Below, in pieces: positions 2,349 to 23,169 of a stretch of 23,242 nt of DNA. Within the stretch, counting starts at the first letter, position 1. The number at the start of each line of letters is the position of its first letter. The notes beneath the pieces are model-generated. The model saw only the letters and a list, made by a program, of their open reading frames with translations, did not search any database and was not told where the DNA came from. This stretch comes from a virus: positions 1 to 23,242 of IMG/VR virus record IMGVR_UViG_3300037245_000726; one strand, 5' to 3'. Made by a program: the position numbers and the translations under genes.

Positions 2349-4019
2349 ATGAAAAAGTTTTTTATAATATTAATAATGACCTCGGTTTCATGTGTTATTG
2401 CGGGCACTAATGTTGAACGGATTGGGTACAATTTCCCCATCCAGATCCCTGACGGGGTGGCGGTTATATCGATAATCTCTGATGATCCGATACTGACTGC
2501 CCACTCTGTTTTGTATCAAGAGTGTAAGAAGCGAGGTATTCCTATAACTCTATCTACACCATCAATGATTTCAAGCTTAAGTCCAATCCAGCTATATCAC
2601 GCAACACCATTGCAATTAGCCGAAATGTTATGTAAAGGTGGGTCCACTTACGCATACCACTCAACATCACACTGGCAATGGCAAGGGCACAGTGATGATC
2701 CCTGGTTTACAAGGGAAGTTGCGGAGGGGCATTCATACGGAGGCAGTGGAACGGTCAGGGATTTACTTGGGCCTCCACCAGTAAACCCTGCTTATGGAAG
2801 AACGCAGACAGTAGTTGAAACACCTGGCGATGTAGTTGCTGCAATTATACAAGCATCCGGTACGGCCATTTTTGACACGTCCGATGTAGGTGCGGAATAT
2901 ATAACGGCTGACTGTTTTCATGCTCCAGGTCAATGGTATGAGGATGGAGAAGTAGAAGCCCTTGTACCTGGCTCCGAGTATTGGCAGATATTAAGAAACG
3001 AATGGGGTGAAAGTGTTGTCTTAGAGGGCGCTTCGTGGGTTCAGAGTATACCGACGAATAAGAGGCATGATCGGCAGACGATCGGTAGTTATAGCAACTC
3101 AAGCCAGTTAGTCAATGCTTTAGATGGCGTGGTCGAGGTTGGCGGTGCTGCTCATTACTTCGCTCATGAGTGGTTGGCAGTAGGTGAAACAGGTGGCACT
3201 AATGAGGGTTCGGCTAGACCGGGTCAAGAGGCATATACAGATGCCATCCTTAACGCTACGCTTGTAACTTTCCTTGATGCTATTGAGGATCATGTCCAGG
3301 CAGGTAACTTGATAGTCATGGGTTCAGGTGCTATCGCAAACGCTGTAAGAGGCACTCCATTAAACTTAATAAGTAACTCTGACTTTACAATTGACCATCA
3401 CACATCAGCTTCCGGGGTTGAGGGCTGGGGAAGGGTTAGTGATAAATCGTCTACTGAAATAACAGAGCTTTATAAAGGCTCTGATTCAGGCCATGACTAT
3501 GTATTGATTAACAAAAAAACAAGAACCGTTAGGATCGGGTTTTACACCTTTGGCGAAAACATGACCGATACTGAGGCGTTCCTCATTACTGGATGGGTTA
3601 AGGTGTCGACCGGGACGACAGATCCACAGATTGTAATCTATGGAGGTGATGCGGCGGCAGTACCTACCAGAACAATAAGTTCGAGCGTAACACGAATGGT
3701 CGAGCCGGCAGATAAGTATGACGAGGACGCTGCGGGACAGGCTCCACTTGGCGGGCTTATGTCACAACCGCTATACACTTATGAGTTTGATGGCACTGAG
3801 GCACTTGCAGCGAACGGTACATGGGCATATTTCACTGTTCCGTTTTCACTACCCAAGCCTTTATGTCGATGGGCTATAATGCTCACGACAACGAACGGCG
3901 ACGATTCAGAGATATGGTTTTCAGATGTCAAGATACATCCTAATAGCGGGATAGTTCCGGCTAACCGAGGGACAACCGCAATACCTACTGGTACATATCG
4001 TGGGAGATACAACCCATAA
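2349..4019 (+). CDS. Secreted-type polysaccharide-deacetylase-like protein, 556 aa, probable tail-associated enzyme
   Basis: The frame is open from a TTG at 2319, but the ATG at 2349 is preferred: AAGGA lies 8 bases upstream and the product then begins with a signal peptide (MKKFFIILIMTSVSCVIAG). Residues about 36-280 resemble the NodB/CE4 deacetylase fold: VAVISIISDDP (44-46 SDD, motif 1), YHSTSH (104-108, the H-[ST]-x-x-H metal motif), FHAPGQW (190-196, loosely motif 3) and HYFAHEW (269-275). Residues about 340-545 are beta-rich and look like a galactose-binding or carbohydrate-binding jelly roll. The last residues are RGRYNP, a motif shared with three other proteins here. Inference: a virion or exported enzyme that trims acetyl groups from host surface polysaccharide. 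The family assignment rests on motifs, and the third motif lacks the usual Arg. Confidence 0.65.
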   Translation: MKKFFIILIMTSVSCVIAGTNVERIGYNFPIQIPDGVAVISIISDDPILTAHSVLYQECKKRGIPITLSTPSMISSLSPIQLYHATPLQLAEMLCKGGSTYAYHSTSHWQWQGHSDDPWFTREVAEGHSYGGSGTVRDLLGPPPVNPAYGRTQTVVETPGDVVAAIIQASGTAIFDTSDVGAEYITADCFHAPGQWYEDGEVEALVPGSEYWQILRNEWGESVVLEGASWVQSIPTNKRHDRQTIGSYSNSSQLVNALDGVVEVGGAAHYFAHEWLAVGETGGTNEGSARPGQEAYTDAILNATLVTFLDAIEDHVQAGNLIVMGSGAIANAVRGTPLNLISNSDFTIDHHTSASGVEGWGRVSDKSSTEITELYKGSDSGHDYVLINKKTRTVRIGFYTFGENMTDTEAFLITGWVKVSTGTTDPQIVIYGGDAAAVPTRTISSSVTRMVEPADKYDEDAAGQAPLGGLMSQPLYTYEFDGTEALAANGTWAYFTVPFSLPKPLCRWAIMLTTTNGDDSEIWFSDVKIHPNSGIVPANRGTTAIPTGTYRGRYNP

Positions 4020-4033
4020 GAAAGAAGGCAATA

Positions 4034-4483
4034 ATGGCTAAGAAAGCCGAAAAGAAGAAAACAGAAGAAGTTGACTACAGCAAGCCTCTCTTAAGCATAC
4101 AGTACGAGAAGTTCTGCCAGGCGTACATGCTGACAGGCAACGCCACACAAGCAGCAAAAGACGCGAAATACAGCGAAAAAACGGCTAATGTCAAGGGTAG
4201 CCAATTATTAACAATAATTAGTATTAAGAATCGCATGGCAGTATTACAAGCCCAGCTATCAAAAGAAACAGGTATATCGATCAAGATGGTAGCCGAAGGG
4301 TTTAGGAAAATAGCGACAGGCGTCCTGGATAAGGGCCTTACGAATAAGAATAAACTCAGGGCTTATGAGAACTTAGGCAAGCACGTGGGCTTTTACCGAG
4401 AAGATAACAAGCAAAAGGTTGATGCTCTTGGTGAATTGCTTGCAAGCCTGGACGGAAACAGTAAGGGGCTGCCGACACAATAG
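4034..4483 (+). CDS. terS: Terminase small subunit
   Basis: 149 aa. Recognises packaging DNA and delivers it to the large terminase. Residues about 24-75 follow the Terminase_2 pattern closely: YEKFCQAYMLTGNATQAAKDAKYSEKTA then a helix 'GSQLL...IKNRM', corresponding to an N-terminal helix-turn-helix. The rest is helical and Lys-rich, ending in a flexible tail. An AAAGAAGG ribosome site precedes the start. The large terminase follows about 460 bases later, with small genes between. Confidence is high from motif and context. Confidence 0.88.
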   Translation: MAKKAEKKKTEEVDYSKPLLSIQYEKFCQAYMLTGNATQAAKDAKYSEKTANVKGSQLLTIISIKNRMAVLQAQLSKETGISIKMVAEGFRKIATGVLDKGLTNKNKLRAYENLGKHVGFYREDNKQKVDALGELLASLDGNSKGLPTQ

Positions 4484-4549
4484 TGCATTATTGAGCTGTG
4501 AGATACATGTTTGCGCCCTACGGAGTAACTTTTAAAAGGAGACAGAGTA

Positions 4550-4716
4550 ATGGCTAGATTTATGATAAAAAAAAGGACAGTGGTGCAACATTCATGGTTA
4601 TCAAGGAAATGGTGTTTATTTCTTCTGTGGTGGGCATCGGTATAATGAAACGGTTCAAAGACATAAACTGGGCGATAGGCATGATGTTGTTATGTTTAAT
4701 ATTGGGAGAGAAATAG
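4550..4716 (+). CDS. Small two-helix membrane protein split by an A8 run (frameshift or slippage)
   Basis: A strong AAAGGAG site precedes ATG 4550, which opens MARFMIKK and then runs out of frame to a stop at 4645. The -1 frame, reachable at the A8 run (4567-4574), continues KKDSGATFMVIKEMVF with two hydrophobic stretches (VFISSVVGIGIM; WAIGMMLLCLIL) to a stop at 4716, two bases before the next start. The run contains A-AAA-AAA in the correct phase for -1 slippage. Alternatives are an indel, or separate translation of the 40-codon internal frame from ATG 4594, which has no good ribosome site. The two-helix layout could suit a holin-like or envelope peptide, but there is no family match. Confidence 0.4.
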
Positions 4717-4717
4717 A

Positions 4718-4912
4718 ATGAAGATTAAGATGTATTTGCATGGAAGTAAAGAGTCTGCCATTGAGAGAGCGGAAGAGATGGGACTGGACGAAGTGGCCGA
4801 GAAGAAGTTTATGTATGCTTTGTATGAAGTCGAGTTTGAGTTGGAGGTAGATAAGTTGACTGGTGATTACAAGATACTATCGGTTAAAGATGGCGACCAA
4901 GAACTAAGTTAA
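4718..4912 (+). CDS. Small acidic hypothetical protein, 64 aa
   Basis: Begins MKIKMYLHGSKESAIERAEE, with GGGAGAG upstream, and starts two bases after the preceding frame stops. Pattern: short beta strand, an amphipathic Glu-rich helix (about residues 10-30), then two or three beta strands (FMYALYEVEFELEVD; GDYKILSV). A compact alpha/beta protein is plausible. It sits between the two terminase genes, a common place for small unknowns in podoviruses. Function unknown. Confidence 0.7.
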   Translation: MKIKMYLHGSKESAIERAEEMGLDEVAEKKFMYALYEVEFELEVDKLTGDYKILSVKDGDQELS

Positions 4913-4940
4913 ACTCCGAGCTACTTATAGTAGGAACTGA

Positions 4941-6485
4941 ATGACAGAAGCGGAACTAAAAAAGAATATGAGTGACCGGCTATGGCGGCTTAACAACCTG
5001 TACTGGATCACTAACGAGCAGGGCCAGCGTGTCAAGTTTAGCTGCCGGGCGGTCCAGCTATTGCTTTATCACGCCTTGCATTGGCTCAATATCATCCTGA
5101 AGAGCCGACAGCACGGGATAACAACCTTCTGTTGTATTATGATGCTTGATATGTGCATGTTTAACAGTAACACGAACGCAGGGATCATAGCCCATGACCT
5201 GAAGGCGGCAGGCGAGATATTTAGAAGCAAGATCAAATACCCATTCTCCCAGCTACCGAAGTCACTACAAGAGAGCTTGAAGCCGACAAAGAACGATGCG
5301 GGACAATTAATCCTTGCGAACAACTCAATGATTATGGTTGCAACGTCTTTGCGGTCTGGTACTTATCAGTGGGTACACATAAGCGAATATGGCAAGATAT
5401 GTGCTAAGACACCCGAAAGAGCGGTTGAGATACGATCAGGTACGCTTGAAACAGTACACGAAGAAGGCATTGTAACGATCGAAAGCACTGCCGAAGGTTC
5501 AGCGGGCGACTTCCACGACAGGTATAAAGACGCCGAATCCTTCGAATTGAGCGGCAAGCCTCTTGGCCCCATGAATTACAAGCGGCATTTCTTCGCATGG
5601 TTCCAAGACCCAAAGAACACGACCGATCCGCAATACATTGATATTCCCGTTGGAATCAATGAGTATCTCGACAAGCTTGAAGTGGGCCTATCCCTTCAGT
5701 TCACACCTGGACAGCGAGCCTGGTATGCACAAAAGAAGCACACTCTAAAGCTTTTGATGTACCGGGAGCATCCTTCGACCGCAGATGAATGCTTTAAGGC
5801 GTCTGTTGAAGGCGCTTACTACGGTACTGAAATGGCGATAGCCCGTGAGAACGGTAGGATATGTCGCGTAACACACGAGAGAAACGCCGATGTCCACACA
5901 GTTTGGGACTTAGGCCACAAGCACACAGCGGTATGGTTTGTGCAGTTCATCGGCCAAGAGATACGATTGATCGACTTTTACTACGACAAAGAAGGCCAGG
6001 GGATGCCAGAGTACGCTTTAATGCTACAAGACAAGCGGTATAAGTATGGCAAGCATTTTGCACCATGGGATGTTGACGGCAAGCAGGGCGGGCCTAACGC
6101 TAGAAGTATGCAGACCGGCCGTGATCTGGTTGATGTTGCTCGTGAAGCTGGCATTGATTTTGAGATGGTAACTAAATGTTCGGTGTCTGGCGGGATCAAA
6201 GAGGCAACCGAGATAATCGCCCGATGCTGGTTTGATGTTGATAAGTGTGCTCATGGGATTAAATGCCTTGAAATGTACAGGGCAAAGTGGAACGAAGACG
6301 CAGGGTGTTATGATACAAAGCCATTGCATGACTGGGCAAGCCACGGTGCGGATGGATTCAGGTATCTTGCCACGGTCTACAGGTGTTCAAGCTTTGCCGG
6401 TGAACGTGTCGGAGCGACCAAGCAGACGATCCCGATCAGGATAGGGCATTCAGCATATCAACGCCCATTAAAGAAACTAGCATAA
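4941..6485 (+). CDS. terL: Terminase large subunit (packaging ATPase and nuclease)
   Basis: 514 aa, normal length for a phage TerL. It drives ATP-dependent packaging of DNA into the prohead through the portal and cuts concatemers. N-terminal ATPase: Walker A-like KSRQHGITT (54-62), Walker B VHISEYGK (145-152, catalytic Glu149), coupling motif VTIESTAEGSAG (from 178). The C-terminal RNase H-like nuclease begins at VWDLGHKHTA (321-330, Asp323), with a further acidic site near APWDVDGKQGG (about 376-386) and the typical LHDWASHGADGFRYLA near the end (acidic residues). AGGAA precedes the start. It lies upstream of the portal gene, as in BPP-1- and P22-like phages rather than T7. Confidence 0.93.
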   Translation: MTEAELKKNMSDRLWRLNNLYWITNEQGQRVKFSCRAVQLLLYHALHWLNIILKSRQHGITTFCCIMMLDMCMFNSNTNAGIIAHDLKAAGEIFRSKIKYPFSQLPKSLQESLKPTKNDAGQLILANNSMIMVATSLRSGTYQWVHISEYGKICAKTPERAVEIRSGTLETVHEEGIVTIESTAEGSAGDFHDRYKDAESFELSGKPLGPMNYKRHFFAWFQDPKNTTDPQYIDIPVGINEYLDKLEVGLSLQFTPGQRAWYAQKKHTLKLLMYREHPSTADECFKASVEGAYYGTEMAIARENGRICRVTHERNADVHTVWDLGHKHTAVWFVQFIGQEIRLIDFYYDKEGQGMPEYALMLQDKRYKYGKHFAPWDVDGKQGGPNARSMQTGRDLVDVAREAGIDFEMVTKCSVSGGIKEATEIIARCWFDVDKCAHGIKCLEMYRAKWNEDAGCYDTKPLHDWASHGADGFRYLATVYRCSSFAGERVGATKQTIPIRIGHSAYQRPLKKLA

Positions 6486-6512
6486 TAGTATTAAGACGAA
6501 AGATGTGGCCAA

Positions 6513-6731
6513 ATGGATACGAGCGATGACGTAAGCAGTTTATTCGGTGGTGGCGGCGATAGCCCAGACCTCCCCAGCCAGGAAGCGACACAGTCCAAGC
6601 GTACAGCGACAGCATTGCCGCAGAGTTCGCAGGCTTCTGATGAGGCTAAGCGATTAAGGGCATCCAGTCTGACAAAGGGTTTTGCCCCCGTAAGATTAGG
6701 CGAACAGGGTTTACTAGGCATAGGAGCTTGA
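6513..6731 (+). CDS. Small hypothetical virion-module protein, 72 aa
   Basis: Begins MDTSDDVSSLFGGGGDSPDL, a disordered Ser/Gly/Gln-rich segment, and ends with LRASSLTKGFAPVRLGEQGLLGIGA. That C-terminal element recurs in the next gene (LLASSLTSGFA...GQGI), so the two genes share a motif or are paralogous at their ends. Short proteins ending in 'LLTGG...LLG' are common between terminase and portal genes in podoviruses; their role is unclear. The ribosome site is weak. Confidence 0.65.
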   Translation: MDTSDDVSSLFGGGGDSPDLPSQEATQSKRTATALPQSSQASDEAKRLRASSLTKGFAPVRLGEQGLLGIGA

Positions 6732-6732
6732 T

Positions 6733-7113
6733 ATGACCACCAGCGATGATCCAGCTACATTAGCAGTGATGGCGGCAGTAGGTGCAGGCGTTGGAGCGGG
6801 GACCGCTTCCGCGACGGGTGGCGATGTTGGTAAAGGTGCTATCGGTGGTGCTATCGGAGGTTTAGTTGGCGGCCCGGTCTTTGGCGGCGCTCTCGGCGGT
6901 GCTTTTGGTGGACAGCAGGGTAGAAAGAATAAAGGCTCTAACGACCCTGCGGCAGTCCAGCGGCGGGAGGATGCGAAGAACGTCAGAGATTCAAAAGAGA
7001 AGAAAATAGCATCAGACAAGGCGTTGAAGAAACGAAGACTATTAGCATCTTCATTAACATCGGGCTTTGCAGCAACTTCACCAGTAGGCAATATATCAGG
7101 TCAAGGGATATAA
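6733..7113 (+). CDS. Gly/Ala-rich hypothetical virion-module protein, 126 aa
   Basis: Begins MTTSDDPATLAVMAAVGAGV, preceded by AGGAGC. Residues about 10-60 form a glycine-zipper-like hydrophobic stretch (GGAIGGLVGGPVFGGALGG), compatible with membrane insertion or tight helix packing. Residues 62-105 are a highly charged, Lys/Arg-rich helix, and the C-terminus LLASSLTSGFA...SGQGI resembles that of the previous gene. Glycine-zipper proteins occur in phages as ejected or membrane-active virion proteins, but that is inference. It is separated by one base from both neighbours (TGATATG, TAATATG), suggesting tight coupling. Confidence 0.7.
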   Translation: MTTSDDPATLAVMAAVGAGVGAGTASATGGDVGKGAIGGAIGGLVGGPVFGGALGGAFGGQQGRKNKGSNDPAAVQRREDAKNVRDSKEKKIASDKALKKRRLLASSLTSGFAATSPVGNISGQGI

Positions 7114-7114
7114 T

Positions 7115-8872
7115 ATGGCACTATGGGACGGAAAACCAGTTTACGACAGAGTTCTTGAACTGCTCGCGCAGAGGAAGAAAGCTTATGTCAAGTTCAACGC
7201 CGCCAGGGATAGCATTGTAGACTTAATGCGTCCTGATCTCGGCAGTGATACAACCCCAGACGGTGACGGCTCTTTCTTCGGCGACCAGATATACGATGGC
7301 ATCGGCTCATGGGCTGTTGGTGTTATGGCTCGTGGATTCCAGGGCGGGCTTGTAAGTGCTGACGCTGACTGGTTCTCGCATGATATGGAAGATGACCGCC
7401 TTGATGATGTCAAGGTTCTTTCCGAGTGGCAGCAAGAGATTGATAGCCACATGTCCAAGGTTTACCAAAAGAGCAATTTCTACAGAGTTCTCCCCCGCTT
7501 CACAAAGGATGGCGTATCGATCGGTTCACCTGTGATGTTTGTTGAGGAAGAGGACATACTAACCGGCGAGATTGCTTTTAAGCCCCAGCACTACAAGAAA
7601 GTATACCTGTTTTATAATGGCAATAACAAGCTTGAAGGCGTTATTATCAAGGACGATACGTGGACGATCAAGCAGATTTCCGATAAGTTCGCTCAGTCAG
7701 CAGAAGAACAGAAGGCAAAGCTTTCGACCAGCATCAACAATGAGATTGGTAACGGCAAGTATTACACAGAGAGAACGATCATCCGGGCGGTATTTAAGTC
7801 TGATAATCCCGTATGGGACGTTGAAGGGTTTAAGCGGCCCGAAGGCGATGGCGAGTGGTTAAGCGTTTACTTTGAGGAAAAGACCGAAGAGGATCGCAAG
7901 AACACACCTTTATTGACTGAACAGTATTTCAGCCGTCCGTTTGTTGTGTGGGATTACGACAAGCATGAGGATGAGTCTGTATCGAGAACCCCGGCATTCG
8001 ACGCTATCCATGATGTACTGGCACAACAGCAGGAGTCCTTAGACCTTGCCGAGAACCGGAAGTTGAAGAATAATCCTCCAATGGCCGTGCTTGAGGATCA
8101 TAGAAACATAGTAGATTTTACTCCGCAGGGCATTACGCCGATAGCAAGTGGGGACTGGAACATGTTACCCAAGGCGATCGACATGGTTGGCGACATACAA
8201 TTAACCCGCGAAAACCTTGAGTTTAACGCTGAGAAGGTTAAGCGTTGGTTCCATACCGCAGATTTTGTGAAGTTCACAGACCTGACCAATACTCTAAGAC
8301 AGCAGCCATCCGCGACACAGATAATCAAGATCGCAGCCGAGCTTGCAACACAGGTCAACCCGGGCATCGCATCCTACACAACTGGATTCCTCAAAGATGT
8401 TGATACTCGGATGATCGACATTGAAGTACGTGCAGGTCGTGGGCCGTTCCATCCGCTAAGAATGCAGGAGATTGCCGATGTTATCCGTGCTCATACAGGC
8501 GAAGAGGTCAGCAGTATCAGTGTTGTTCCGGTATTCATTGGCCAGCTTGCAAGGGCACAGAAGGTAAAAGCCGAGCTTGACCCGATCCTTGAAGGGCTTG
8601 GCGTTGGTTCTGAGATGTTCCAGATATGGCCGAACCTTAAACACGCCATAGACGAGCACGGTACGCTTCAGGACGCCTTAAAGGTTATGAACTTCCCGAT
8701 GGACAGGTTTAAGTCCAAAGACGACTACAACGAGATTGTGGAGCGCATACAGGCAGCGGAGGCAGCGGCACTGAAACAGCAACAGACACTTGAAATGTTA
8801 AAGGCTTCACCGGCGGTACAAGGCCCGGTGGATGAAACAAGTATAATGAGTCAAGTACAGGGAGCGGGATAA
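7115..8872 (+). CDS. Portal / head-to-tail connector protein
   Basis: 585 aa. Forms the dodecameric portal at one capsid vertex through which DNA enters and leaves, and on which the short tail is built. It fits the podoviral head-tail connector family (T7 gp8 type; Pfam Head-tail_con): N-terminal DRVLELLAQRKKAYVKFNAA, then GSWAVGVMARGFQGGLVSAD near residues 65-85, the DPW-like core replaced by ADWFSHDM, and a helical C-terminal half ending in a Gln/Ala-rich coiled segment (QAAEAAALKQQQTLEML). AAGGGA precedes the ATG. It overlaps the next gene by one base (TAATG). Confidence 0.9.
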   Translation: MALWDGKPVYDRVLELLAQRKKAYVKFNAARDSIVDLMRPDLGSDTTPDGDGSFFGDQIYDGIGSWAVGVMARGFQGGLVSADADWFSHDMEDDRLDDVKVLSEWQQEIDSHMSKVYQKSNFYRVLPRFTKDGVSIGSPVMFVEEEDILTGEIAFKPQHYKKVYLFYNGNNKLEGVIIKDDTWTIKQISDKFAQSAEEQKAKLSTSINNEIGNGKYYTERTIIRAVFKSDNPVWDVEGFKRPEGDGEWLSVYFEEKTEEDRKNTPLLTEQYFSRPFVVWDYDKHEDESVSRTPAFDAIHDVLAQQQESLDLAENRKLKNNPPMAVLEDHRNIVDFTPQGITPIASGDWNMLPKAIDMVGDIQLTRENLEFNAEKVKRWFHTADFVKFTDLTNTLRQQPSATQIIKIAAELATQVNPGIASYTTGFLKDVDTRMIDIEVRAGRGPFHPLRMQEIADVIRAHTGEEVSSISVVPVFIGQLARAQKVKAELDPILEGLGVGSEMFQIWPNLKHAIDEHGTLQDALKVMNFPMDRFKSKDDYNEIVERIQAAEAAALKQQQTLEMLKASPAVQGPVDETSIMSQVQGAG

Positions 8873-9192
8873 TGGCCAATAAAGAATACATGAAACTTCT
8901 GGAAGTTGAGCTTGCGAAAGTCAGGGCGTTGTCCTCGAAAGAAGGTAATACAAATGAAGAGTTTTCTTGGGGTTTGCTTGCCAAGAGGTGTGAAGTCGGT
9001 GATTATGGCGAGGATGGTGTTGCTATTGTTATCTCGGCATCAGGAAATTCAGACCGAAGAGAGTTTGACGAGCATGACCCGCCTACCGAGGGATTTGTGA
9101 AAAATGCCATTCTTGAGGCTTTAGAGCGGCTACAGTCGGTAACTAAGGGAAAGATAAGAGAATTGAGAATCGCAATGAAGAGGACTATGTAA
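8872..9192 (+). CDS. Hypothetical protein, 106 aa
   Basis: Starts in the TAATG overlap with the portal stop, with GGGAG nearby. N-terminal helix (EYMKLLEVELAKVRAL), a central beta part containing YGEDGVAIVISAS, and a C-terminal amphipathic helix (FVKNAILEALERLQSV) followed by a basic tail. It has no membrane segment. Position between portal and scaffold suggests a morphogenesis-module protein, but no family is recognised. Confidence 0.75.
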   Translation: MANKEYMKLLEVELAKVRALSSKEGNTNEEFSWGLLAKRCEVGDYGEDGVAIVISASGNSDRREFDEHDPPTEGFVKNAILEALERLQSVTKGKIRELRIAMKRTM

Positions 9193-9422
9193 TGCCAAAT
9201 AAGAAACTAACACAGACAGGAATAAACCGGGCAATGTGGATCATGCTGAAGAAGCTTAAAGGCAAGGTCACTATTCCTGAGAGACTATTGGAATCGCCTA
9301 ACGTAGACGATGCGATGCAGATACAGTACGATCCGTCAACAAGTAGCTTTACATTCTCATTGCATAAGGTTAAGGGCGAGAAGAAATCGCCTATAATTCA
9401 AGTACCGAGGATTCACGCATGA
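9192..9422 (+). CDS. Small basic hypothetical protein, 76 aa
   Basis: Starts in a TAATG overlap with the previous stop. It has a Lys-rich N-terminal helix (INRAMWIMLKKLKGK) followed by beta-type sequence (AMQIQYDPSTSSFTFSLHKV) and ends VPRIHA. The net charge is strongly positive, compatible with contact with DNA or an acidic partner. Function unknown. Confidence 0.68.
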   Translation: MPNKKLTQTGINRAMWIMLKKLKGKVTIPERLLESPNVDDAMQIQYDPSTSSFTFSLHKVKGEKKSPIIQVPRIHA

Positions 9423-9688: not shown

Positions 9689-9690
9689 TC

Positions 9691-10101: not shown

Positions 10102-10106
10102 GAGTT

Positions 10107-10967: not shown

Positions 10968-10978
10968 AAACCATAAGC

Positions 10979-11106: not shown

Positions 11107-11165
11107 CCAGAAATGGACACCTCTCCGACAATTAAAAATATTAATTTAATTACGGAGTATTAATC

Positions 11166-12176: not shown

Positions 12177-12207
12177 TCAAACATAATTCCAATGAAAGGG
12201 TACTCTT

Positions 12208-12702: not shown

Positions 12703-12711
12703 ACAATAACG

Positions 12712-13755: not shown

Positions 13756-13760
13756 AAAAA

Positions 13761-13791: not shown

Positions 13792-13805
13792 CAAGGAGTA
13801 AAGCA

Positions 13806-14135: not shown

Positions 14136-15343
14136 TGAGATATTCATTTATCTTTTTGGCTCTTTGTGGAGCCGTTTTTGCAACTATCCCAACGTTAGAG
14201 GCTGACGCTGGCGCAACCACTCTGCGGATAACGGATGGAACTTCCCTTGACCCTGTTACATGGAATGATGTCTGGGCTTTTGGTGCTGGTGGCGGTGCGG
14301 GGCTTGTACCCCTTGACGGCGGCGGCACAGCAAGAGTTGACACCTTTATAACCGAGATTATCGCTGATGCGATGTATCTTATCTTAAAGGATATTGATTT
14401 TGGCGACGGCAGTACATCGACATACTTTACAAGCTTAAATGAGCAGCTTTATTTTGTAGATGACGCTTTGCCATTTATCGCTGCAAATGCTAGATTTGAT
14501 ATGGGTGAAGCCCTTGGCGATTGGAGTAAGAATGGTTCTTGCATGTCAATAGGCATTACGGGTGGGGCTGGACATAGTATATCAACCTCAGCTAGTGCTG
14601 TTTTTGCTACTTACGGTTCTATGATAATTCGCAGAAATGCTTCTAATTATTCGACACTTGCTCTGTCCGGTGGGACTTGGATAGCTCGAAATTTTACTTA
14701 TATTGGTTTTGGTTTGGACTACATACATCTTTCGACGGGTACGGTTGATTGGGACACTGTTACAATATTAGATCCTTTTATATTCCAAATGTCTCTTACG
14801 CCGACAAATTTTAATAATATTCATGTTCATGGGGCATATACTGGGCTTTTCTCGTATCAGCCTATCACGGCAACAAATATGTTGATAACAGATGCATCGA
14901 TAGAAGTACAAATGAATGTCGCTGGTAACTTAATTCTAAAAAACCCACGTTTTAATATTAACGGTTCTAAAGTAACTATCACAAACGCTAGTGGCAATAT
15001 TATTGAACAATACACTTGCAACATTCACGTCAATGATAAAGATGGCGTAGACCTTGAAGGCGCTAGTGTGTTATGCGAAGACGAGGCCGATGCGGAAGTG
15101 TTTAGTGTTTCCACAGATGTCAATGGGGATATTGCCGAACAGTTAATCAACTATAAGCAGTGGGTAGGCACAGACGAAACACTGACAGACTTTAGTCCGC
15201 ATGTGTTCACAATATCAAAAGCAGACCTTGTGACACTGGTGATTGACGCTGTAACTGTTGACGACCCAATATCCTTCCTGTATGAGCAATTACTAGAGTC
15301 TGCAAGCGGGGGCGGAGGCATTAGATCAAGGTATAATCCATAA
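14135..15343 (+). CDS. Signal-peptide-bearing beta-rich surface protein with C-terminal RYNP motif, 402 aa
   Basis: The frame is open from TTG 14123, but ATG 14135 is chosen because it overlaps the previous stop (TAATG) and begins directly with a signal peptide (MRYSFIFLALCGAVFATIP). Residues about 90-300 are beta-strand rich with repeated Ser/Thr/Asn turns, like a beta-helix or beta-solenoid. Residues about 305-375 (DGVDLEGASVLCEDE... then STDVNGDIAEQ) resemble the carboxypeptidase-regulatory-like beta-sandwich found in phage surface proteins. The extreme C-terminus is GGGGIRSRYNP, a flexible Gly stretch ahead of the shared motif. Likely a displayed or exported structural protein; no enzymatic site is seen. 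Confidence 0.75.
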   Translation: MRYSFIFLALCGAVFATIPTLEADAGATTLRITDGTSLDPVTWNDVWAFGAGGGAGLVPLDGGGTARVDTFITEIIADAMYLILKDIDFGDGSTSTYFTSLNEQLYFVDDALPFIAANARFDMGEALGDWSKNGSCMSIGITGGAGHSISTSASAVFATYGSMIIRRNASNYSTLALSGGTWIARNFTYIGFGLDYIHLSTGTVDWDTVTILDPFIFQMSLTPTNFNNIHVHGAYTGLFSYQPITATNMLITDASIEVQMNVAGNLILKNPRFNINGSKVTITNASGNIIEQYTCNIHVNDKDGVDLEGASVLCEDEADAEVFSVSTDVNGDIAEQLINYKQWVGTDETLTDFSPHVFTISKADLVTLVIDAVTVDDPISFLYEQLLESASGGGGIRSRYNP

Positions 15344-15389
15344 TAAAACCGTGTTGTGAAAAATAAACTGAATTTTAAGGAGCAAAAGC

Positions 15390-16253
15390 ATGAAAAAATT
15401 AATTACACCAGCAATAGTATTATTACTGGTTGTGTGCGGCGCATCATTAACCCACGTAAGCCAGATAATCGGTAATGCGTTACATACGGTGCAGAACGCT
15501 TGGATTATTGCCGAGACCGAGACTTCAGCATCGACACAGACAGACGCACTTGGAGTAACCGAGCGAACCAAGAAGATAGTTGACGCTTTGATTTTAGCGA
15601 ATGCGAACGAAGAGGCTCAAATATCTATCCGGGCGATCCCTCCTCACTGGAACGCTATAAGGGCAAGGGCTATCGGCATCACTGACGCTGGTACTGTAAC
15701 GCACCAGATATACTTAGGTACGCTTGGCGGTGAGCTTGATTGCGAATTGTCTCACTCCGCTCAGTTAGCTTGGGTTATTGGTACTCAGCAAAGCATCTAT
15801 GAGCAGATAACCTTTACGCTTGGCGGCGCTGGGACTGCATACGTCCCTCAGATCGGCGACACTGTTACTGGCAATACAAGCGGAGAAACTGCGGTCATCG
15901 TTTCTATATCAGACTTGTCTTCTGGGGCATGGGCAGATGGAGACGCCGCGGGTACGATTACATATAGATCGCCATCCGGGTTATTCACTGCCGCAGAGAC
16001 AGTTTCGATATTAAGAGCCAATAGGGTTATAACCAGCGACGCATTGAAACACGCGAACTCTGTGTTTGTTGAATTTGAGTTAGCCGATACACTGGTTATT
16101 ACTGCGGGTGCATGGGGTTCTACATGGACCACTACTTCGCCCGCCGACAATACCAACGCAGAGGCAGAGGTAGATGTCAAAGGGGCTGATTTTATGGTTA
16201 TCGTAACATCAGCGACTTCGGTTGATAGCAAGTTACTCATTAGAGGATTCTAA
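15390..16253 (+). CDS. Signal-peptide-bearing phage structural-module protein, 287 aa
   Basis: AAGGAG precedes ATG 15390. The N-terminus MKKLITPAIVLLLVVCGAS is a signal peptide. Residues about 15-70 are helical. Residues about 150-200 (GDTVTGNTSGETAVIVSISD then WADGDAAGTITYRS) match a small beta module seen in many phage structural proteins, with the pattern 'GDTVTGxTSGxTAxVV...W..GDAAGT'. The C-terminal part is beta-rich and ends LLIRGF. It is the last of four consecutive signal-peptide genes and ends two bases before the gp11-like gene. Role unknown; a virion surface or exported protein is likely. Confidence 0.72.
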   Translation: MKKLITPAIVLLLVVCGASLTHVSQIIGNALHTVQNAWIIAETETSASTQTDALGVTERTKKIVDALILANANEEAQISIRAIPPHWNAIRARAIGITDAGTVTHQIYLGTLGGELDCELSHSAQLAWVIGTQQSIYEQITFTLGGAGTAYVPQIGDTVTGNTSGETAVIVSISDLSSGAWADGDAAGTITYRSPSGLFTAAETVSILRANRVITSDALKHANSVFVEFELADTLVITAGAWGSTWTTTSPADNTNAEAEVDVKGADFMVIVTSATSVDSKLLIRGF

Positions 16254-16255
16254 TT

Positions 16256-17251
16256 ATGGCTTCTGATTTAGCAGGCATTGCCAATAATGCAGGTGGCAGG
16301 ATAGGCGGGTTTGGCGACCAGTTAAGCGCAAGCGGGCAGATTACAGCTTCACAACTGACCGCTAACGCTGATCCGGTGAGCCAATGGATTAACGAGAAAT
16401 ACCCTATTATCCGGCGTAAGGTTATTGCTGACTTTGCTGGGATGAAAGCTCCTTTCAAGGAAACTCGTAAATTCGCAAGCCTTGGCCCTGATTTAAAGCA
16501 AAGCGATGTTGCGATTACGTCGATAACCTCCGTTGCTACTGTTGTCACCGTGACCACAAAGACGGCTCACGGCAGGATCACGGGCGATACGGGCTTTCTT
16601 GCAGAGATTGAGGGGGTTGACGTTGAAGGACAGCTAATAACTTCCCTAAACGGCACAACTCCGACTATCACAGTGCTTACCACAACCACCTTCACCCTGG
16701 ACGGTGTGGCGGGCGTTGACGCGACATGGGACTACACCGCTGATACAGGGATTATTAGTTATGTCCCTGAAATCGGTGCATGGAATTACGCCTTTAAGCT
16801 GCCGAGTGACTACTTTGCTGCTGTCAGGCAAACCGACGAATCACTGGCAACTACTGGCGGCGTTAAGACTAAATACCAGTTCAAGGCCATTCTGAATCGT
16901 GACGGTGACGGGTTCCTATGGCTCACCAACGATCTTACAAACAACGACGGCGACAGTGCTTATATTGAGTATTGCATCGACCAAACAACGTTTACGCTGT
17001 TTAGCCCGGGCCTTGAAGAATCTATTGCGATGCTTTTAGCTGCTGAACTATGCCCGAATCTTGGCAGGAACCTTGAAACAAGACAACAGTTGCTTTTAGA
17101 ATACAAGCAGTTGACCGTCAAAGAAGCAAAACGGAACAACCAAAGCCAGCTTGACACCACGGCTCATGTGCCGAGTAATTATCTCGGTGGCAGAACAAAA
17201 AGAATATCAGGCATATCAAGTACAACGAGGAGAAGTTCATGCAGAGATTAG
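16256..17251 (+). CDS. Tail tubular protein A / head-tail adaptor (T7 gp11-like) with inserted beta domain
   Basis: 331 aa. In T7-like phages this protein forms the ring between portal and tail nozzle. N-terminal part (about 1-82) contains GRIGGFGDQLSA and SQWINEKYPIIRRKVIADF, the helical start of the family; the later part has YAFKLPSDYFAAVRQ and, near the C-terminus, LEESIAMLLAAELCPNL, also typical. Residues about 86-155 (ITSITSVATVVTVTTKTAHG ... TTFTLDGVAG) look like an inserted beta domain of the FCCH-like type ('V-T-x-x-x-H-G...G-D...V...LNG...TFTLDGV'), which accounts for the length above T7 gp11 (196 aa). It has no signal peptide. Its end overlaps the next gene by 13 bases. Confidence 0.82.
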   Translation: MASDLAGIANNAGGRIGGFGDQLSASGQITASQLTANADPVSQWINEKYPIIRRKVIADFAGMKAPFKETRKFASLGPDLKQSDVAITSITSVATVVTVTTKTAHGRITGDTGFLAEIEGVDVEGQLITSLNGTTPTITVLTTTTFTLDGVAGVDATWDYTADTGIISYVPEIGAWNYAFKLPSDYFAAVRQTDESLATTGGVKTKYQFKAILNRDGDGFLWLTNDLTNNDGDSAYIEYCIDQTTFTLFSPGLEESIAMLLAAELCPNLGRNLETRQQLLLEYKQLTVKEAKRNNQSQLDTTAHVPSNYLGGRTKRISGISSTTRRSSCRD

Positions 17252-20200
17252 TGGTAAAATTATTACTAATAATTCTATGCTCAAGCTGTTTAGCGGTTAG
17301 CCCGACGGTAAAATCGTTTAACACAGGTCAAGTGTCGCCACTCATGGAAACAAGGACGGATTTTCAGAAGTATCAGTCGTCAAACAGGACGGTTGAAAAC
17401 ATGCTCGTCACGGTTCATGGCCCGGCACAGCGAAGACCCGGTACGAAGTTTATCGCCGAGACTAAAGACAGTAGCAGTGTATCAAGATTAATACCCTTTG
17501 AAGCCTCGACAGATGATGCTTACCCGATTGAGTTGGGCAATATCTACGCCAGATTCTACAGGGCAGGCGGGCAGGTGCTTACTTCAGGCGGCACAGAAGA
17601 TTTAACCGCTTTGGACAACATTATAGCACATTGGCTCATAAACGATAACGCCGCAAATACGCAAGTGCTTGACGATGACGGGGCTACTCATAACGGCGTA
17701 GCGAGCATTAACACAGACGTTATACATGAAGACGGTAAGGTTGGTACTGGAAGTTTCGACCTTGCCGCACAGTACGCAGTTTCAGTAGCAGACAGCGCAG
17801 ACTTTACTTTTGTTGAGGGCGTTGATGGAGATTTCAGCCTCACGGGATGGGTGTATATAAAAGACACCGAAACAGAACAGGTCATAATCTCAAAGTGGGA
17901 CGAAACCGCCGGAAGCACTGCAAGGGAATGGAAGCTTTTATTGGACGAAGACCTTAAACTAAAAATGGTACTCGCTGACGAGAGTTTGTTTTTAGATCAA
18001 GACTTAGTTGCTCAATGGAAAATGAATGACAGTCTTGCCACTGATGTTGTTTTAGACGCTCTTGCTGCTAATAATGGGGCGTTGACGGATGGAGGGGATA
18101 ACTTCACCTCAGACCATAGCGTACCAGGGATAACAAACAATGCCCTTAGCTTTGATGGTACTAACGACATTGTTACGGTTCCAGATGCGGCCGCATTCTC
18201 GTTCTCTTCTGGCGGAGGCACTGACACAGCGTTTTCGATAAGCGCATGGGTAAACATGACCGACGCTACCAGTTTTGCTATTATAAATAAGCGGGTCAAT
18301 AGTGTGTCACAAGGCGAATGGATGCTCACTACTGGAGCGGACGACAAGCTCTATTTTAATTGCACGTTGGACGATTACACTAACAGGATTGGACGTGGGT
18401 ACAACACGGCGTTAGGCGAAGGGTCATGGATACACGTAGTAGCCACCTACGACGCTACAAAAGCATCGTCTGGGATAATCCTATATGTCAATGGGTCTGC
18501 TGTCGATGATATTGACGACAATGCAGGTTCGTACACGGGCATGGTTGCTGGAAGTTCTGATGTCAGAATTGGAAGGGACGTTACAACTGGATATTCAGAG
18601 GGAAAGATTGACAACGTAATTATTTTCAATAAGAAATTATCCTCTGGCGATGTCACCCTTTTATACAACGGCGGTGCAGGCACGGAGAGTTTGGATAATG
18701 GGTCTATCTCGGCATTGTCCGATGATGCACTAACCGCAGGATGGCGATATGTTGCGATGACTTATAACGGCCAAAACAACGGCGGTGCTGCTGCGGCAGA
18801 TGACATGATATTATACGTGGACAGCGTTGTAGTCTCTTCTACGGCAACTAATCTGTCAACCTACTCGAAAATGGAGGACACTGCTGCTGTAGTTAGAATA
18901 GGCTCACAGGAATCTTCGGCAGGGGCAATCGAAAAGATATGGGCAGAGAGATTGGACGAGTTTGCCGTATTCGGCGATGTTTTGACGCCAACGGAAGTAG
19001 CATCTTTGTTCTCAGATACCTCAATATACGAAATAATAACACCTTTTAGCTCAGAAGAAATATCCGAAATACAATACGCACAGAGCGATGACGCAATGTA
19101 TATCGTAAACGGCACGGATGTCCCACAGGTCTTAATAAGAATAGAGCATGACGAGTGGACTATTGCCGACGGTGTTTTCGAGACAGGCCCATTCCAAACT
19201 GAAAATACAGATTTATCTTTAACAATAACACCATCAGCGACTACAGGGAGCGTTACACTCACCGCGAGCAGTCTTCTTTTTGAAGTTGGTCATGTTGGGT
19301 CTATCTGGGAGATAAGCCAGCCACGAGACACTTCGGTTTTCACTGGTTCTGTGACTGACGGGGCTTTGACGGGCGCGAGCACGGCTTTCTTTAATGGGGG
19401 CTACAGCTTTACCACTGACGGAACATGGGACGCGACGGTAACACTCCAAAGAAGCACAGATGTTGGCGTTACGTGGGAAAACGCATTATCACCGCTTAAT
19501 TCTACAAATTTCGACAATCCTGCCGAGACCGAAGAGACAGGGGCTATTTATAGGGTATTAATGAGCGATTGGGTTTCTGGGACTGCAAACTGGACTTTCA
19601 TTATATCAGATTCTTTGAACCGCGGCATAGTTAGAATAACAGGCTTCACCTCCTCGACCGTTACTACTGCAACCGTAATCACTGATTTAGCGAATACGGA
19701 CGCGACAAGCAAGTGGCGGGAGGGTTATTGGTCTGACTTTAGGGGCTGGCCTAAAACAATAGCCTTTCACCAGCAGCGATTAGTGTTTGGAGGGTCACGT
19801 TCCTTCCCGCAAGTCCTTTGGTTTGGCAAACAAGACCCGGACGATTACACAAACTTCAATGAAGGCACACTTGATACCTCGTCGTTCACAGCCGCCCTGG
19901 AAGGCCAAAACCCTATTCGGTGGTTATTGAGCCAAGAATACCTAACTATCGGCTCTAGCGGCTCGTGTGGCTTGTGGGGCGAGCGTGGCGTGAATGTTAC
20001 GCCAACAAGCCCAGCCTACCAAGACCAGACTTCTCACGGATCAGCGTCTATCAGCGCAGTAATGGGCGGCGATTCGATTATCTACATTGAGCGTGGGGCA
20101 AGGAACGCCAGAGAGTTATCGTTTAGTCTTCAGGTTGACAAGTATCTCTCGCCGAATTTAAGCGTTTTATCGCCGGAAATCACCGAAAGCGGGATGAAAG

Positions 20201-21006
20201 AGATCGCTTTTCAGCTTCGTCCTTCGCCGATTTTATGGTGCGTCTTAAATAATGGAGATATGGCAACGCTCACTTATCAGAGCGATCAGGCTGTTGTTGC
20301 ATGGTCAAAGCAGGTCACGGATGGAAACTTTGAAAGCGTAACCTCAGTTCCAAGCATCACCGGGTCAGAAGACGAGGTGTGGGTTATTGTACAAAGGACT
20401 TTCTCAGGCGTTAATTCCGGCAACCCCGTAAGATATGTCGAGCAGTTCCAGCCGAGGGATTGGGGTACTGATGACAATGACGCATGGTTCCTCGATTCAG
20501 CTTTATCTTACAACAGCACGCCCCAGACCTCATTTACCGGATTAGGTCACTTAGAGGGTGAAACAATGTCTATCTACGCGGACAGGCTTATCGAGAACCC
20601 GGAAATAGTCGTAAGTGGTTCAATAACGATCGACAACGCGGCATCGAGAGTGTTGGCTGGATTACCGTTTACATCAAAGCTTGAAACCTTCCCGATAGTT
20701 ATCGACCCACAGGACGCCGCTTTCAATAAGAAAATCAAATTTGTTTGGGCTGACCTGTTTGAATCTGGCGCGTTGGAATATGGTGGCTCTTCTGCCGCGA
20801 CTTTGATGACTGTCAACTTTGAAAACAGTTTGATAAACAACCCCGCCGCGACTGCACAAGACCTTTACACTTCGGCGGTATCACAGAAAAAGCTTATGTG
20901 GTTCTTTGGATCGCTAAAGAAACAAACGATATACTTGGAAACATCAGAGCCAATGCCCTTAACTGTACGCGGATTGACGCCTGATTACGACTTGACGGGA
21001 AACTAA
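17239..21006 (+). CDS. Tail tubular protein B-like tail protein with signal peptide and nested LamG domains, 1255 aa
   Basis: AGGAG precedes ATG 17239. The first 19-20 residues (MQRLVVKLLLIILCSSCLA) form a signal peptide. They are followed at once by the family start SFNTGQVSPLMETRTDFQKY and RRPGTKFIAETK. No ATG, GTG or TTG occurs between codon 5 and this conserved start, so the leader must be translated with it. Residues 127-591 are a LamG domain interrupted by another LamG domain. The tail protein then resumes at YEIITPFSSEEISEIQYAQS and runs through RGWPKTIAFHQQRLVFGGSR, typical of the family. Without residues 127-591 the protein is 790 aa, close to T7 gp12 (794). It forms the tail nozzle in T7; here it also displays lectin-like domains that may bind host glycans. 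Confidence 0.87.
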   Translation: MQRLVVKLLLIILCSSCLAVSPTVKSFNTGQVSPLMETRTDFQKYQSSNRTVENMLVTVHGPAQRRPGTKFIAETKDSSSVSRLIPFEASTDDAYPIELGNIYARFYRAGGQVLTSGGTEDLTALDNIIAHWLINDNAANTQVLDDDGATHNGVASINTDVIHEDGKVGTGSFDLAAQYAVSVADSADFTFVEGVDGDFSLTGWVYIKDTETEQVIISKWDETAGSTAREWKLLLDEDLKLKMVLADESLFLDQDLVAQWKMNDSLATDVVLDALAANNGALTDGGDNFTSDHSVPGITNNALSFDGTNDIVTVPDAAAFSFSSGGGTDTAFSISAWVNMTDATSFAIINKRVNSVSQGEWMLTTGADDKLYFNCTLDDYTNRIGRGYNTALGEGSWIHVVATYDATKASSGIILYVNGSAVDDIDDNAGSYTGMVAGSSDVRIGRDVTTGYSEGKIDNVIIFNKKLSSGDVTLLYNGGAGTESLDNGSISALSDDALTAGWRYVAMTYNGQNNGGAAAADDMILYVDSVVVSSTATNLSTYSKMEDTAAVVRIGSQESSAGAIEKIWAERLDEFAVFGDVLTPTEVASLFSDTSIYEIITPFSSEEISEIQYAQSDDAMYIVNGTDVPQVLIRIEHDEWTIADGVFETGPFQTENTDLSLTITPSATTGSVTLTASSLLFEVGHVGSIWEISQPRDTSVFTGSVTDGALTGASTAFFNGGYSFTTDGTWDATVTLQRSTDVGVTWENALSPLNSTNFDNPAETEETGAIYRVLMSDWVSGTANWTFIISDSLNRGIVRITGFTSSTVTTATVITDLANTDATSKWREGYWSDFRGWPKTIAFHQQRLVFGGSRSFPQVLWFGKQDPDDYTNFNEGTLDTSSFTAALEGQNPIRWLLSQEYLTIGSSGSCGLWGERGVNVTPTSPAYQDQTSHGSASISAVMGGDSIIYIERGARNARELSFSLQVDKYLSPNLSVLSPEITESGMKEIAFQLRPSPILWCVLNNGDMATLTYQSDQAVVAWSKQVTDGNFESVTSVPSITGSEDEVWVIVQRTFSGVNSGNPVRYVEQFQPRDWGTDDNDAWFLDSALSYNSTPQTSFTGLGHLEGETMSIYADRLIENPEIVVSGSITIDNAASRVLAGLPFTSKLETFPIVIDPQDAAFNKKIKFVWADLFESGALEYGGSSAATLMTVNFENSLINNPAATAQDLYTSAVSQKKLMWFFGSLKKQTIYLETSEPMPLTVRGLTPDYDLTGN
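17617..19011 (+). other. Outer LamG (concanavalin A-like) domain split in two, within the tail protein
   Basis: Residues 127-249 (from DNIIAHWLINDN to KLKMVLADES) give the first half of a LamG jelly roll: W at the start, GKVGTGSFDL, VSVADSADF, FSLTGWVYIKD, IISKWDETAG. Residues 486-591 give the second half: AGWRYVAMTYNGQ, DDMILYVDSVVV, VVRIGSQES, RLDEFAVFGDVLTPTEVASL. Together they make about 229 residues, the normal size for one domain. It sits between GGQVLTSGG and YEIITPF of the tail protein, at a loop where related proteins have no insert. Confidence 0.8.
17986..18693 (+). other. Inner complete LamG domain inserted into the outer LamG
   Basis: Residues 250-485 hold a full LamG pattern in order: DLVAQWKMNDS, NNALSFDGTNDIVTVPDAA, FSISAWVNMTD, IINKRVNS, GSWIHVVATYDATK, GIILYVNGSAVDD, VRIGRDVTTG, KIDNVIIFNKKLSSGDVTLL. 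It is bounded on both sides by the two halves of the outer domain, so the insertion is within a strand-to-strand loop. Confidence 0.82.
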
Positions 21007-21453
21007 GTGATAGAGATTAGAAAAATCCAAGATGGCGATTTAGAGCAAATTCTTGCCGATCCGTTTCAGGACTCCCTTAAGAAGTACCCTGAACTAAATG
21101 AGGATCAAAAGAGAATTGTCAATGAAACATCTTTCGCTGGCGTGCAAGATGGCGAACTACTTGGCATTGGTGGAGTTGTTGACAGGGGAGATGGCATCGG
21201 CGAGGCGTGGCTGATGTTGGTTAAAGATATTGGCAAGAGCGGGGCAAGCGGACTCATGGCTTTTCATGCGATACGTAAAAAGCTTGACGAGCTTTGCGAA
21301 CCGTTCGATAAATGCCAAGCACTTATAAGGGACGATTTCCCGAAAGCTCAGGCAATGATTAAGGCTTTAGGGTTTGAGTTTGTTGAAACTTTTATTGAAA
21401 GATCGCCTGACGGCGTAGATATGCACTTATTCTTGAAAGTGTCCGATGAATAG
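21007..21453 (+). CDS. T7 gp13-like protein with acetyltransferase (GNAT-like) fold, 148 aa
   Basis: GTG start two bases after the tail gene stops (residues MIEIRKIQDGDLEQILADPF). Strand and helix order, the opening EIRKIQDGDLEQIL and LIRDDFPKAQAMIKALGFEF near the end follow the GNAT layout of small phage proteins related to T7 gp13 (138 aa). T7 gp13 is needed for internal core assembly and is not a proven enzyme. The acetyl-CoA P-loop is degenerate (KDIGKSGASGLMAFH), so activity is doubtful. It sits between the gp12-like and gp14-like genes, exactly as in T7. Confidence 0.78.
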   Translation: MIEIRKIQDGDLEQILADPFQDSLKKYPELNEDQKRIVNETSFAGVQDGELLGIGGVVDRGDGIGEAWLMLVKDIGKSGASGLMAFHAIRKKLDELCEPFDKCQALIRDDFPKAQAMIKALGFEFVETFIERSPDGVDMHLFLKVSDE

Positions 21454-22120
21454 ATATAACCGATACAATAGAGAAATACCGGAAGATTGTCGTGTTGTCG
21501 AACATAATGGTCATGCGTTCATTATAGGCACTACTCCTGAAACTATGCGGCGAAGATACGACCCCTTAACGATCGCGTTAGGCGCCGCCGCAGCCGGAAC
21601 AGCATTACAGGTTGCCAGTACGCTCAAAGAGGGCAAGCAGGCCGAGAAGCTGGCAGAACAACGCGCCGCTATCGACCTTCAAAACGCCGACCAGGTTAGA
21701 AAACAAGCTGTCGAGGCCGCAAGGATTGAAGCCGATAAAGGCAGGAAGGCACTAGCTACCGCTAAGTCAACCGCCGCCGCTTCAGGGATCAGGATAAACA
21801 TAGGTTCCCCGCTGGTTATCGATACCGAGATAAGAAACAATATTGCTAAAGAAACTGGCTTCATTCTTGAAAGAGGTCGTGCGCATGAATTAAGCTTCAG
21901 GGATTCTGCGGCTATAAATATCGCACAAGGCAAAAACATAAGACGTAATTCTAAAACAAGTGCTATCGCACAAGGCTTATTTGGGGCCAGTTCGATTGCC
22001 TTTATGGGCATGCAAAGCGGGGCTTTTACTGGCGGGACAACCCCGGTCGCCTCACCTTCAGGCCCATCGTCTTTAAATAATCTTAACACAGGTGGCGGCT
22101 CTAGGAGATTTACAGCATGA
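21446..22120 (+). CDS. T7 gp14-like internal virion protein, 224 aa
   Basis: Overlaps the gp13-like gene by 8 bases. After a polar N-terminal stretch (MNRYNRYNREIPEDCR...) comes MRRRYDPLTIALGAAAAGTA, a short Pro followed by a hydrophobic Ala/Gly-rich helix, as in gp14-type proteins ('C-D-P-x-T-...AAAAGTA'). Residues about 55-115 are a long Ala/Glu/Lys-rich coiled coil (KQAEKLAEQRAAIDLQNADQ). A Gly/Ser/Pro-rich tail ends the protein. gp14-type proteins are ejected into the host and line the conduit through the outer membrane. The N-terminal R-x-R-Y-D-P motif replaces the usual Cys-Asp-Pro. Confidence 0.72.
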   Translation: MNRYNRYNREIPEDCRVVEHNGHAFIIGTTPETMRRRYDPLTIALGAAAAGTALQVASTLKEGKQAEKLAEQRAAIDLQNADQVRKQAVEAARIEADKGRKALATAKSTAAASGIRINIGSPLVIDTEIRNNIAKETGFILERGRAHELSFRDSAAINIAQGKNIRRNSKTSAIAQGLFGASSIAFMGMQSGAFTGGTTPVASPSGPSSLNNLNTGGGSRRFTA

Positions 22121-23169
22121 AAAAACTAATATTGATTCTATTTATGATAATGCTCTGTAATGACTGTTTTGGGTATAGATTCAGGTATAACCCTCTTTGG
22201 ACAAGAAGTAACGGCACGTTGTCACCAGCGAACCCCAGCGACAGTCTTTCGATAGGTGGGGATTTTTCCTTGCTCAACGGAAAAGATTTAAGATTTTATG
22301 ACGTTGGCAACTCAAATTACGTGGGATTCAAAGCGCCTGCCCTTACCGCTAACCAGATATGGACACTTCCGATTGCCGATGGCGATCCAGGTGCAGTATT
22401 AACAACAGATGGTGCGGGAATTACAATCTGGACCGATAACGCTTCCGAAAAGACATGGGCGTTTATGAGCCGGGACGCTTCCAGTGGAACAAACTACATT
22501 GGCGGCTTCTATAAATTTGGCGCAACTGACAACGATTTTAATCCAGCGGCCACACATGGCACGGCTAACGTGGCATACGCCGCCCACTTCTTCTTAGTGC
22601 AAGCGGCGGGTGCAAGTGGCGGAACCGATACGGTGATTAGGATAACTGGGACAACTATTGACGATCAGGGAAACCGAGCAACGGCAGTTGATGTTGATTT
22701 AACAGTTGACGACGCTGGTGCGGCTGGAACGTACTACGAGACGACTCAAAAATGGCTTGGTCAAGTAACAATAACAAAGATTTCCGGCCCTGACCTTTTG
22801 TGCAACTTTGGGTTCTGCAAGTATTGGGACAATAACAATACAGATTTCAAGGTGGCTGGAATTGAGGCTACTTGGCTTGGTGCAAAGAATGACGCTAATC
22901 CCGACATTCATTTACATCACCATAAAACTACAGGCTGGACTTACAACGCAGGCGCAGAGCCTACCACACCGCCGGAGATTGCAACCATGAACGGCGACCA
23001 TGTCACAGAGATACAAATCGCCACCGACCAGGAAGGCGCGTGGAAGCGTGACAATCTAGGCACGGACATCATGGGTAGTGCGGGCGAGGGAACTATAATC
23101 GAGCTAACCACAACTACTAACAGAACATACGCAATAGGCAATTTCCTTGTAAGGATAACGCCACAATAA
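22117..23169 (+). CDS. Signal-peptide-bearing tail-fibre-like protein, 350 aa
   Basis: ATG overlaps the previous stop (ATGA) with AGGAG upstream. Signal peptide MKKLILILFMIMLCNDCFG is followed directly by YRFRYNPLWTRSNG, so cleavage would expose the RYNP motif as the mature N-terminus. Residues about 60-110 (LRFYDVGNSNYVGFKAPALT then WTLPIADGDPGAVLTTDGAG) match the repeat-like stem found in many phage tail-fibre and head-fibre proteins. The C-terminal half is beta-rich, with His-rich HLHHHK near residue 268 and a final TYAIGNFLVRITPQ. A fibre or receptor-contacting role is inferred. Confidence 0.75.
   Translation: MKKLILILFMIMLCNDCFGYRFRYNPLWTRSNGTLSPANPSDSLSIGGDFSLLNGKDLRFYDVGNSNYVGFKAPALTANQIWTLPIADGDPGAVLTTDGAGITIWTDNASEKTWAFMSRDASSGTNYIGGFYKFGATDNDFNPAATHGTANVAYAAHFFLVQAAGASGGTDTVIRITGTTIDDQGNRATAVDVDLTVDDAGAAGTYYETTQKWLGQVTITKISGPDLLCNFGFCKYWDNNNTDFKVAGIEATWLGAKNDANPDIHLHHHKTTGWTYNAGAEPTTPPEIATMNGDHVTEIQIATDQEGAWKRDNLGTDIMGSAGEGTIIELTTTTNRTYAIGNFLVRITPQ

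Follow-up and report, generated by a model that had tools for sequence, protein, structure and literature searches.

The question raised by this locus is why the same short peptide, R-x-R-Y-(N/D)-P, occurs in four different proteins encoded within 23,242 nucleotides of viral DNA, the whole of which is referred to here as the window. A first-pass annotation had proposed a docking peptide at exposed protein termini that is recognised by one common partner. The window belongs to a podovirus, as seen from Pfam and PHROGs matches for a major capsid protein of GP7 type, a head-to-tail connector, a tail protein like T7 gp12 and a gp14-like protein. All four copies of the motif are present where they had been described (Table 1), apart from RGRYNP, which starts at 3999 and not three nucleotides later at 4002. 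Beyond these four, R.RY[ND]P is absent from all six frames of the window, and a scan with the pattern at the DNA level gave four hits on the forward strand, none on the reverse strand and none with the reversed pattern as control.

Table 1. Features of the window, C-terminal tails of the slot proteins (each followed by a stop) and starts of signal peptides
Feature	Position	Strand	Remarks
Protein A, 556 aa	2349..4019	+	Signal peptide MKKFFIILIMTSVSCVIAG; directly before the terminase small subunit
RGRYNP (GTYRGRYNP-stop)	3999..4016	+	Last six residues of protein A
Protein J, 402 aa	14135..15343	+	Signal peptide, domain, SGGGG linker, tag
RSRYNP (GGIRSRYNP-stop)	15323..15340	+	Last six residues of protein J
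Protein K	15390..16253	+	Conserved, with signal peptide; marker of the second slot
gp14-like internal virion protein	21446..22120	+	Without signal peptide; phrog_418, E 1.6e-20
RRRYDP	21548..21565	+	Ahead of the hydrophobic helix of the gp14-like protein
Fibre-like protein, 350 aa	22117..23169	+	Signal peptide, RFRYNP, linker, head domain
RFRYNP (FG-YRFRYNP)	22177..22194	+	Predicted mature N-terminus of the fibre-like protein
Tails, terminase small subunit slot			Window GTYRGRYNP; G017 GGYRSRYGGSYRARYQGIGRY; G018 ARSRPRYSGGGR; G001 TNRRRRYKGRR
Tails, protein K slot			Window GGIRSRYNP; G016 TGIRSRYIEYRITYRTRHAF; G023 phage DNRNRYDSSAFLLGRNRY
Signal-peptide starts, window	17239-21006, 2349, 12754, 13806, 14135, 15390, 22117		
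Signal-peptide starts, relatives	L012, L013, L028-L032, L037, L045, L050, L061, L084		

A comparison with chance frequency, as suggested in the first-pass annotation, favours the motif: composition predicts 0.0012 copies in 7,166 residues and 2,996 of 3,001 shuffles contained none, an expectation that is weakened as evidence by the choice of the motif after the data had been seen. Some exact 5-of-6 pattern common to three proteins was obtained in 76 of 300 shuffled proteomes, and in 14 of 150 four proteins shared some 5-of-6 pattern in which one position was degenerate. Agreement of two C-terminal hexamers at five of six positions was found in 39 of 20,000 random sets. The placement of the motif is thus harder to ascribe to chance than its presence, and the statistics of the window alone are suggestive. 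The strongest support comes from independent relatives.

The codons for arginine and tyrosine vary among the copies, as had been reported, which indicates that the constraint acts on the protein. A signal at the DNA level, for which the promoter-like TATAAT in the copy of protein J was a candidate, was rejected on account of these codons and of an inconsistent position relative to genes. Recent duplication inside the window was dismissed as well, since both the codons and the surrounding residues differ.

Relatives were retrieved by searching with an alignment of three gp12-like proteins, which yielded G017, G018, G001, G014, G015, G016, G019, G020 and G023; G024 was added by a gp14 search. 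Searches with protein A or the gp14-like protein singly gave no relatives. An initial alignment of gp14 proteins proved too divergent for searching, and a smaller one led to one new locus, which lacks the N-terminal extension described below. The capsid proteins of G017 and G018 have 90% and 75% identity to that of the window. G001 is a record of 50,710 bases (50.7 kb), both ends of which (L025 1-1195 and L027 11216-12709) fall in the same stretch of gp12; they appear to overlap, and the genome is probably complete and permuted, though classed as linear. G023 is a contig assigned by binning to a Phycisphaerae MAG, and the presence of a related phage genome in such a bin (L061, JAQTMR010000018.1) hints, from binning alone, at planctomycete hosts for the clade.

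Two gene slots were defined, one just before the terminase small subunit and one just before protein K. In six genomes (the window, G017, G018, G001, G016 and G023) seven slot proteins were found, and all seven end in a tail with R-x-R-Y, a count to be read with the reservation that the slots were drawn up only once the tails had been seen. The tails of the relatives are YRSRYGGSYRARYQGIGRY, RPRYSGGGR, RRRRYKGRR, GRNRY and GIRSRYIEYRITYRTRHAF, alongside RGRYNP and RSRYNP in the window; they diverge strongly outside R-x-R-Y. In G017 and G018 the slot protein lies about 2 kb from the terminase small subunit, and that of G017 extends past the end of its contig with its N-terminus unseen. No slot protein was found in G014, G019, G020 and G024, and the sequence of G015 ends at the terminase side. 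What is conserved in the relatives is a C-terminal R-x-R-Y, often as Y-R-x-R-Y or I-R-x-R-Y. The definition as R-x-R-Y-(N/D)-P was therefore too narrow: the N-P ending is peculiar to the window, and R-x-R-Y alone is the common core. The exact hexamer was rejected as the conserved unit because it is not present at comparable places in proteins of the relatives, and when viral contigs were scanned for Y[RS]xRYNP followed by a stop, with restricted codons, 39 stretches came up, none with a long ORF having that end. The homologue comparison by which the motif was to stand or fall thus had a divided outcome, the exact hexamer being absent from homologues and the core R-x-R-Y being kept in the same slots on non-homologous proteins.

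In the relatives, with the window excluded, R.RY was detected nine times in the 11,880 residues of C-terminal 30-mers compared with six times in 104,116 internal residues, making it about 13-fold commoner per residue. The permuted patterns RR.Y, Y.RR, RY.R and R.YR do not rise at C-termini; YR.R does (5 against 8), partly since tails like YRSR and YRAR include it. Six proteins of relatives carry a terminal R.RY. Whole-protein shuffles gave a mean of 0.9, with none of 500 reaching six, and when the composition of the tails was preserved the mean was 1.2-1.3 and P about 0.003 for six. Among these, L074 5197-5676 is outside the slots and without signal peptide, and its terminal R.RY may be due to chance.

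The bodies of the seven slot proteins show no similarity to each other by BLASTP at E 0.01, except for a 50-aa piece common to G017 and G001. Their tails align better than in all of 1,000 shuffles (540 compared with a maximum of 433), a result biased upward because the tails were picked for R-x-R-Y. The best BLASTP alignment between protein A and the slot protein of G017 is the tail itself (GTTAIPTGTYRGRY against GTVLVPGG-YRSRY), at an E value of 0.72 that is not significant alone. The slot before the terminase gene contains a different secreted body in each phage, for example L076 10812-11771 and L026 12713-13969, which marks it as a cargo hotspot. The assumption of a terminal short linear motif selected at the protein level is supported by these data, R-x-R-Y being C-terminal on unrelated bodies in five other genomes and encoded by differing codons.

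Signal peptides had been noted on three of the four motif proteins, and inspection together with a simple heuristic gave the same result. In this clade, Sec-type signal peptides stand at the start of the tail nozzle (T7 gp12-like) and of most proteins resembling spikes or fibres, and are missing from the head proteins, gp11, the acetyltransferase and gp14. The gp12 homologues of Pelagibacter phages and of many more distant contigs are also without signal peptide. The gp12 of G014 is divided among three consecutive ORFs, each with its own signal peptide at the start (L028 9941-14945). The gp12 protein of the window contains an insertion of about 480 residues (residues 115-597, about 17581-19029) that is missing from L012 and L013 and reads like LamG-type repeats. 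The association between signal peptides and a terminal R.RY in the relatives (3/67 against 3/329, P 0.06) is not significant alone, two tagged proteins having been scored as lacking a signal peptide owing to truncated pieces. Export of the motif carriers is predicted from their N-terminal sequences alone.

For protein A no family was recognised; its assignment as a polysaccharide deacetylase was tried and is unsupported by Pfam or PDB sequences. Only the L061 protein gave a Polysacc_deac_1 match, which is weak and under the curated cut-off. Structure predictions were poor, with a mean pLDDT of 35 for protein A and 40 for protein K. Protein J visibly reads as a chimera: its main domain is present in other phages, where signal peptide and tag are both missing, while in the window a signal peptide is placed in front of this domain and SGGGGIRSRYNP behind it. 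Homologues of protein J outside the clade have neither tag nor signal peptide. In the fibre-like protein, a single residue (Y) separates RFRYNP from the apparent signal peptide, and the head domain (about residues 108-349) recurs in seven further contigs, behind different N-termini. RFRYNP here may represent the tag in N-terminal form; its membership is plausible from a single case, and an N-terminal copy of this type is absent in the relatives.

The fourth protein does not appear to belong with these, as the first-pass annotation had assumed. Its assignment to the T7 gp14-like family is based on the profile match to phrog_418 and on its location between the nozzle and acetyltransferase genes and later virion genes, an order that is the same in the Pelagibacter phages Greip and Skadi-7. 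What the window protein adds to this family is an extension at the N-terminus that ends in [KR]R[YF][DN]P and is lacking in the Pelagibacter phage homologues and in some clade members (G016, the G023 phage, G024 and G019), whose proteins begin at the hydrophobic helix. Where the extension is present, its end follows the wider pattern [KR]R[YFC][DNA]P: RRRYDPLT in the window, KYRFDPLT in G001, FRRYDPIT in G015 and G017, NRRYAPII in G018, KYRCNPIP in G014 and FKRFDPVS in G020. Asp-Pro or Asn-Pro at the start of a helix, flanked by basic residues, is an ordinary arrangement in terms of helix capping and of the placement of charge beside hydrophobic helices. RRRYDP is therefore probably a separate helix-capping element, which is the simpler explanation for a motif within a clade-specific extension. 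In addition, the gp14-like protein, having no signal peptide, would be in a different compartment before lysis from the other three if those are exported, so that one partner for all four becomes awkward. The protein starts with MNRYNRYNRE (21446-21480), in which RYN is doubled, a repeat that the relatives do not show.

Taken together, we propose, with a probability of about 0.45, that the motif is a transplantable terminal R-x-R-Y tag, mainly C-terminal, that tethers apparently Sec-exported cargo to a common partner. This reading is drawn from the terminal position, the recurrence in the same slots on unrelated bodies, the varied codons and the enrichment over internal sequence. The tag would be joined to phage proteins that are apparently exported by Sec and have bodies swapped between phages; the tagged bodies comprise one domain taken over from other phages, one beta-helix, one domain with a weak resemblance to polysaccharide deacetylases and others left unassigned. 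The flexible tail, rich in Arg and Tyr, would then dock the cargo on the common partner, which is probably part of the phage tail or of another structure at the phage surface, in the way that receptor-binding proteins of K1-5/SP6-type phages are held on their adapters by short terminal peptides. Both this binding partner and the presence of the carriers in the virion are inferred. Of the original proposal, a short terminal motif that is probably a docking or tethering tag can be retained, and the hexamer definition and the gp14-like member are given up.

The main rival is a nonspecific basic and aromatic tether, by which the tail would bind a polyanion or the envelope (surface glycan, peptidoglycan, lipopolysaccharide or DNA) with no specific protein socket. 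Exported phage proteins would then be held at the surface of the infected cell, and membership in the virion would be unnecessary. Tails rich in Arg, Tyr and Gly that are loose outside R-x-R-Y, such as RRRRYKGRR and RPRYSGGGR, fit this explanation, as do the signal peptides on the carriers, but R.RY rises at C-termini and RR.Y, Y.RR, RY.R and R.YR do not, so order matters beyond charge, and R-x-R-Y-N-P is exact in three copies of the window. On balance we regard it as unlikely. That the tail is instead a part of the fold of spike-like oligomers, such as a C-terminal strand or clamp, is suggested by its C-terminal place on proteins including a beta-helix body; this is quite improbable given that the tag comes after Gly-rich or low-complexity linkers (SGGGG, IPTGT), is common to bodies without detectable similarity and is N-terminal in the fibre-like protein.

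A host sorting signal, read by the export or anchoring machinery of the host, would likewise be terminal and on proteins with signal peptides. It is very unlikely in view of the absence of R.RY from the last 30 residues of all 614 proteins from 800 kb of that Phycisphaerae MAG in which a related phage is present, a set in which 90 have a signal-peptide-like start and which is linked to the phage by binning only. There is also the explanation by chance, that is, a post hoc pattern in four proteins joined to unrelated basic C-termini in relatives. The 14 of 150 shuffled proteomes with an equally common pattern and the lack of the hexamer in exact homologues speak for it; the enrichment in independent relatives and the tags on seven of seven slot proteins make it rather improbable.

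Short conserved docking peptides are known from receptor-binding proteins of other phages: 7-11-residue N-terminal peptides dock these proteins in K1-5/SP6 and Klebsiella phages, comprising the hepta- and undecapeptides of K1E, K1-5 and SP6 and the MALxxLV heptapeptide of KP34virus (PMC6872550). The tag resembles them in being about 6-10 residues long, in its place at a protein end and in being conserved within a group of phages whose cargo varies, as in all seven slot proteins; the K1-5, SP6 and KP34 systems also have different peptides in different phage groups. It differs in being mostly C-terminal (in proteins A and J and the five slot proteins of relatives, the sole N-terminal copy being that of the fibre-like protein, after the signal peptide), Arg/Tyr-rich and on proteins with signal peptides, for which a role in the virion is putative. 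No T4gp10-like adapter was recognised with Pfam or PHROGs among ten proteins of the window, which is a fragment from a divergent clade. Because of the different position and the lack of a recognised adapter, the tag was not assigned to the K1-5/SP6 type. In phage G7C, gp63.1 docks on gp66 via positive charge, holding a second receptor-binding protein (PMC6872550); the charged surface there is that of a folded domain, whereas here it is a terminal linear peptide. Neither tags of this kind nor tail proteins with signal peptides were the subject of any paper found in the literature searches made.

If the motif is a tether, it would be a compact C-terminal counterpart to the known N-terminal docking peptides of phage receptor-binding proteins, and, in uncultivated phages where homology is of no help, would provide a sequence handle for finding genes of surface cargo. 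With export signals on the carriers, the place at which these tails assemble becomes a testable question. A rather doubtful extension of the tether reading is that Sec exports the tail nozzle and the spike-like proteins of this clade and that the C-terminal R-x-R-Y attaches the exported cargo to a part of the tail beyond the cytoplasm, in which case completion of the tails would take place in the periplasm or on release instead of in the cytoplasm.
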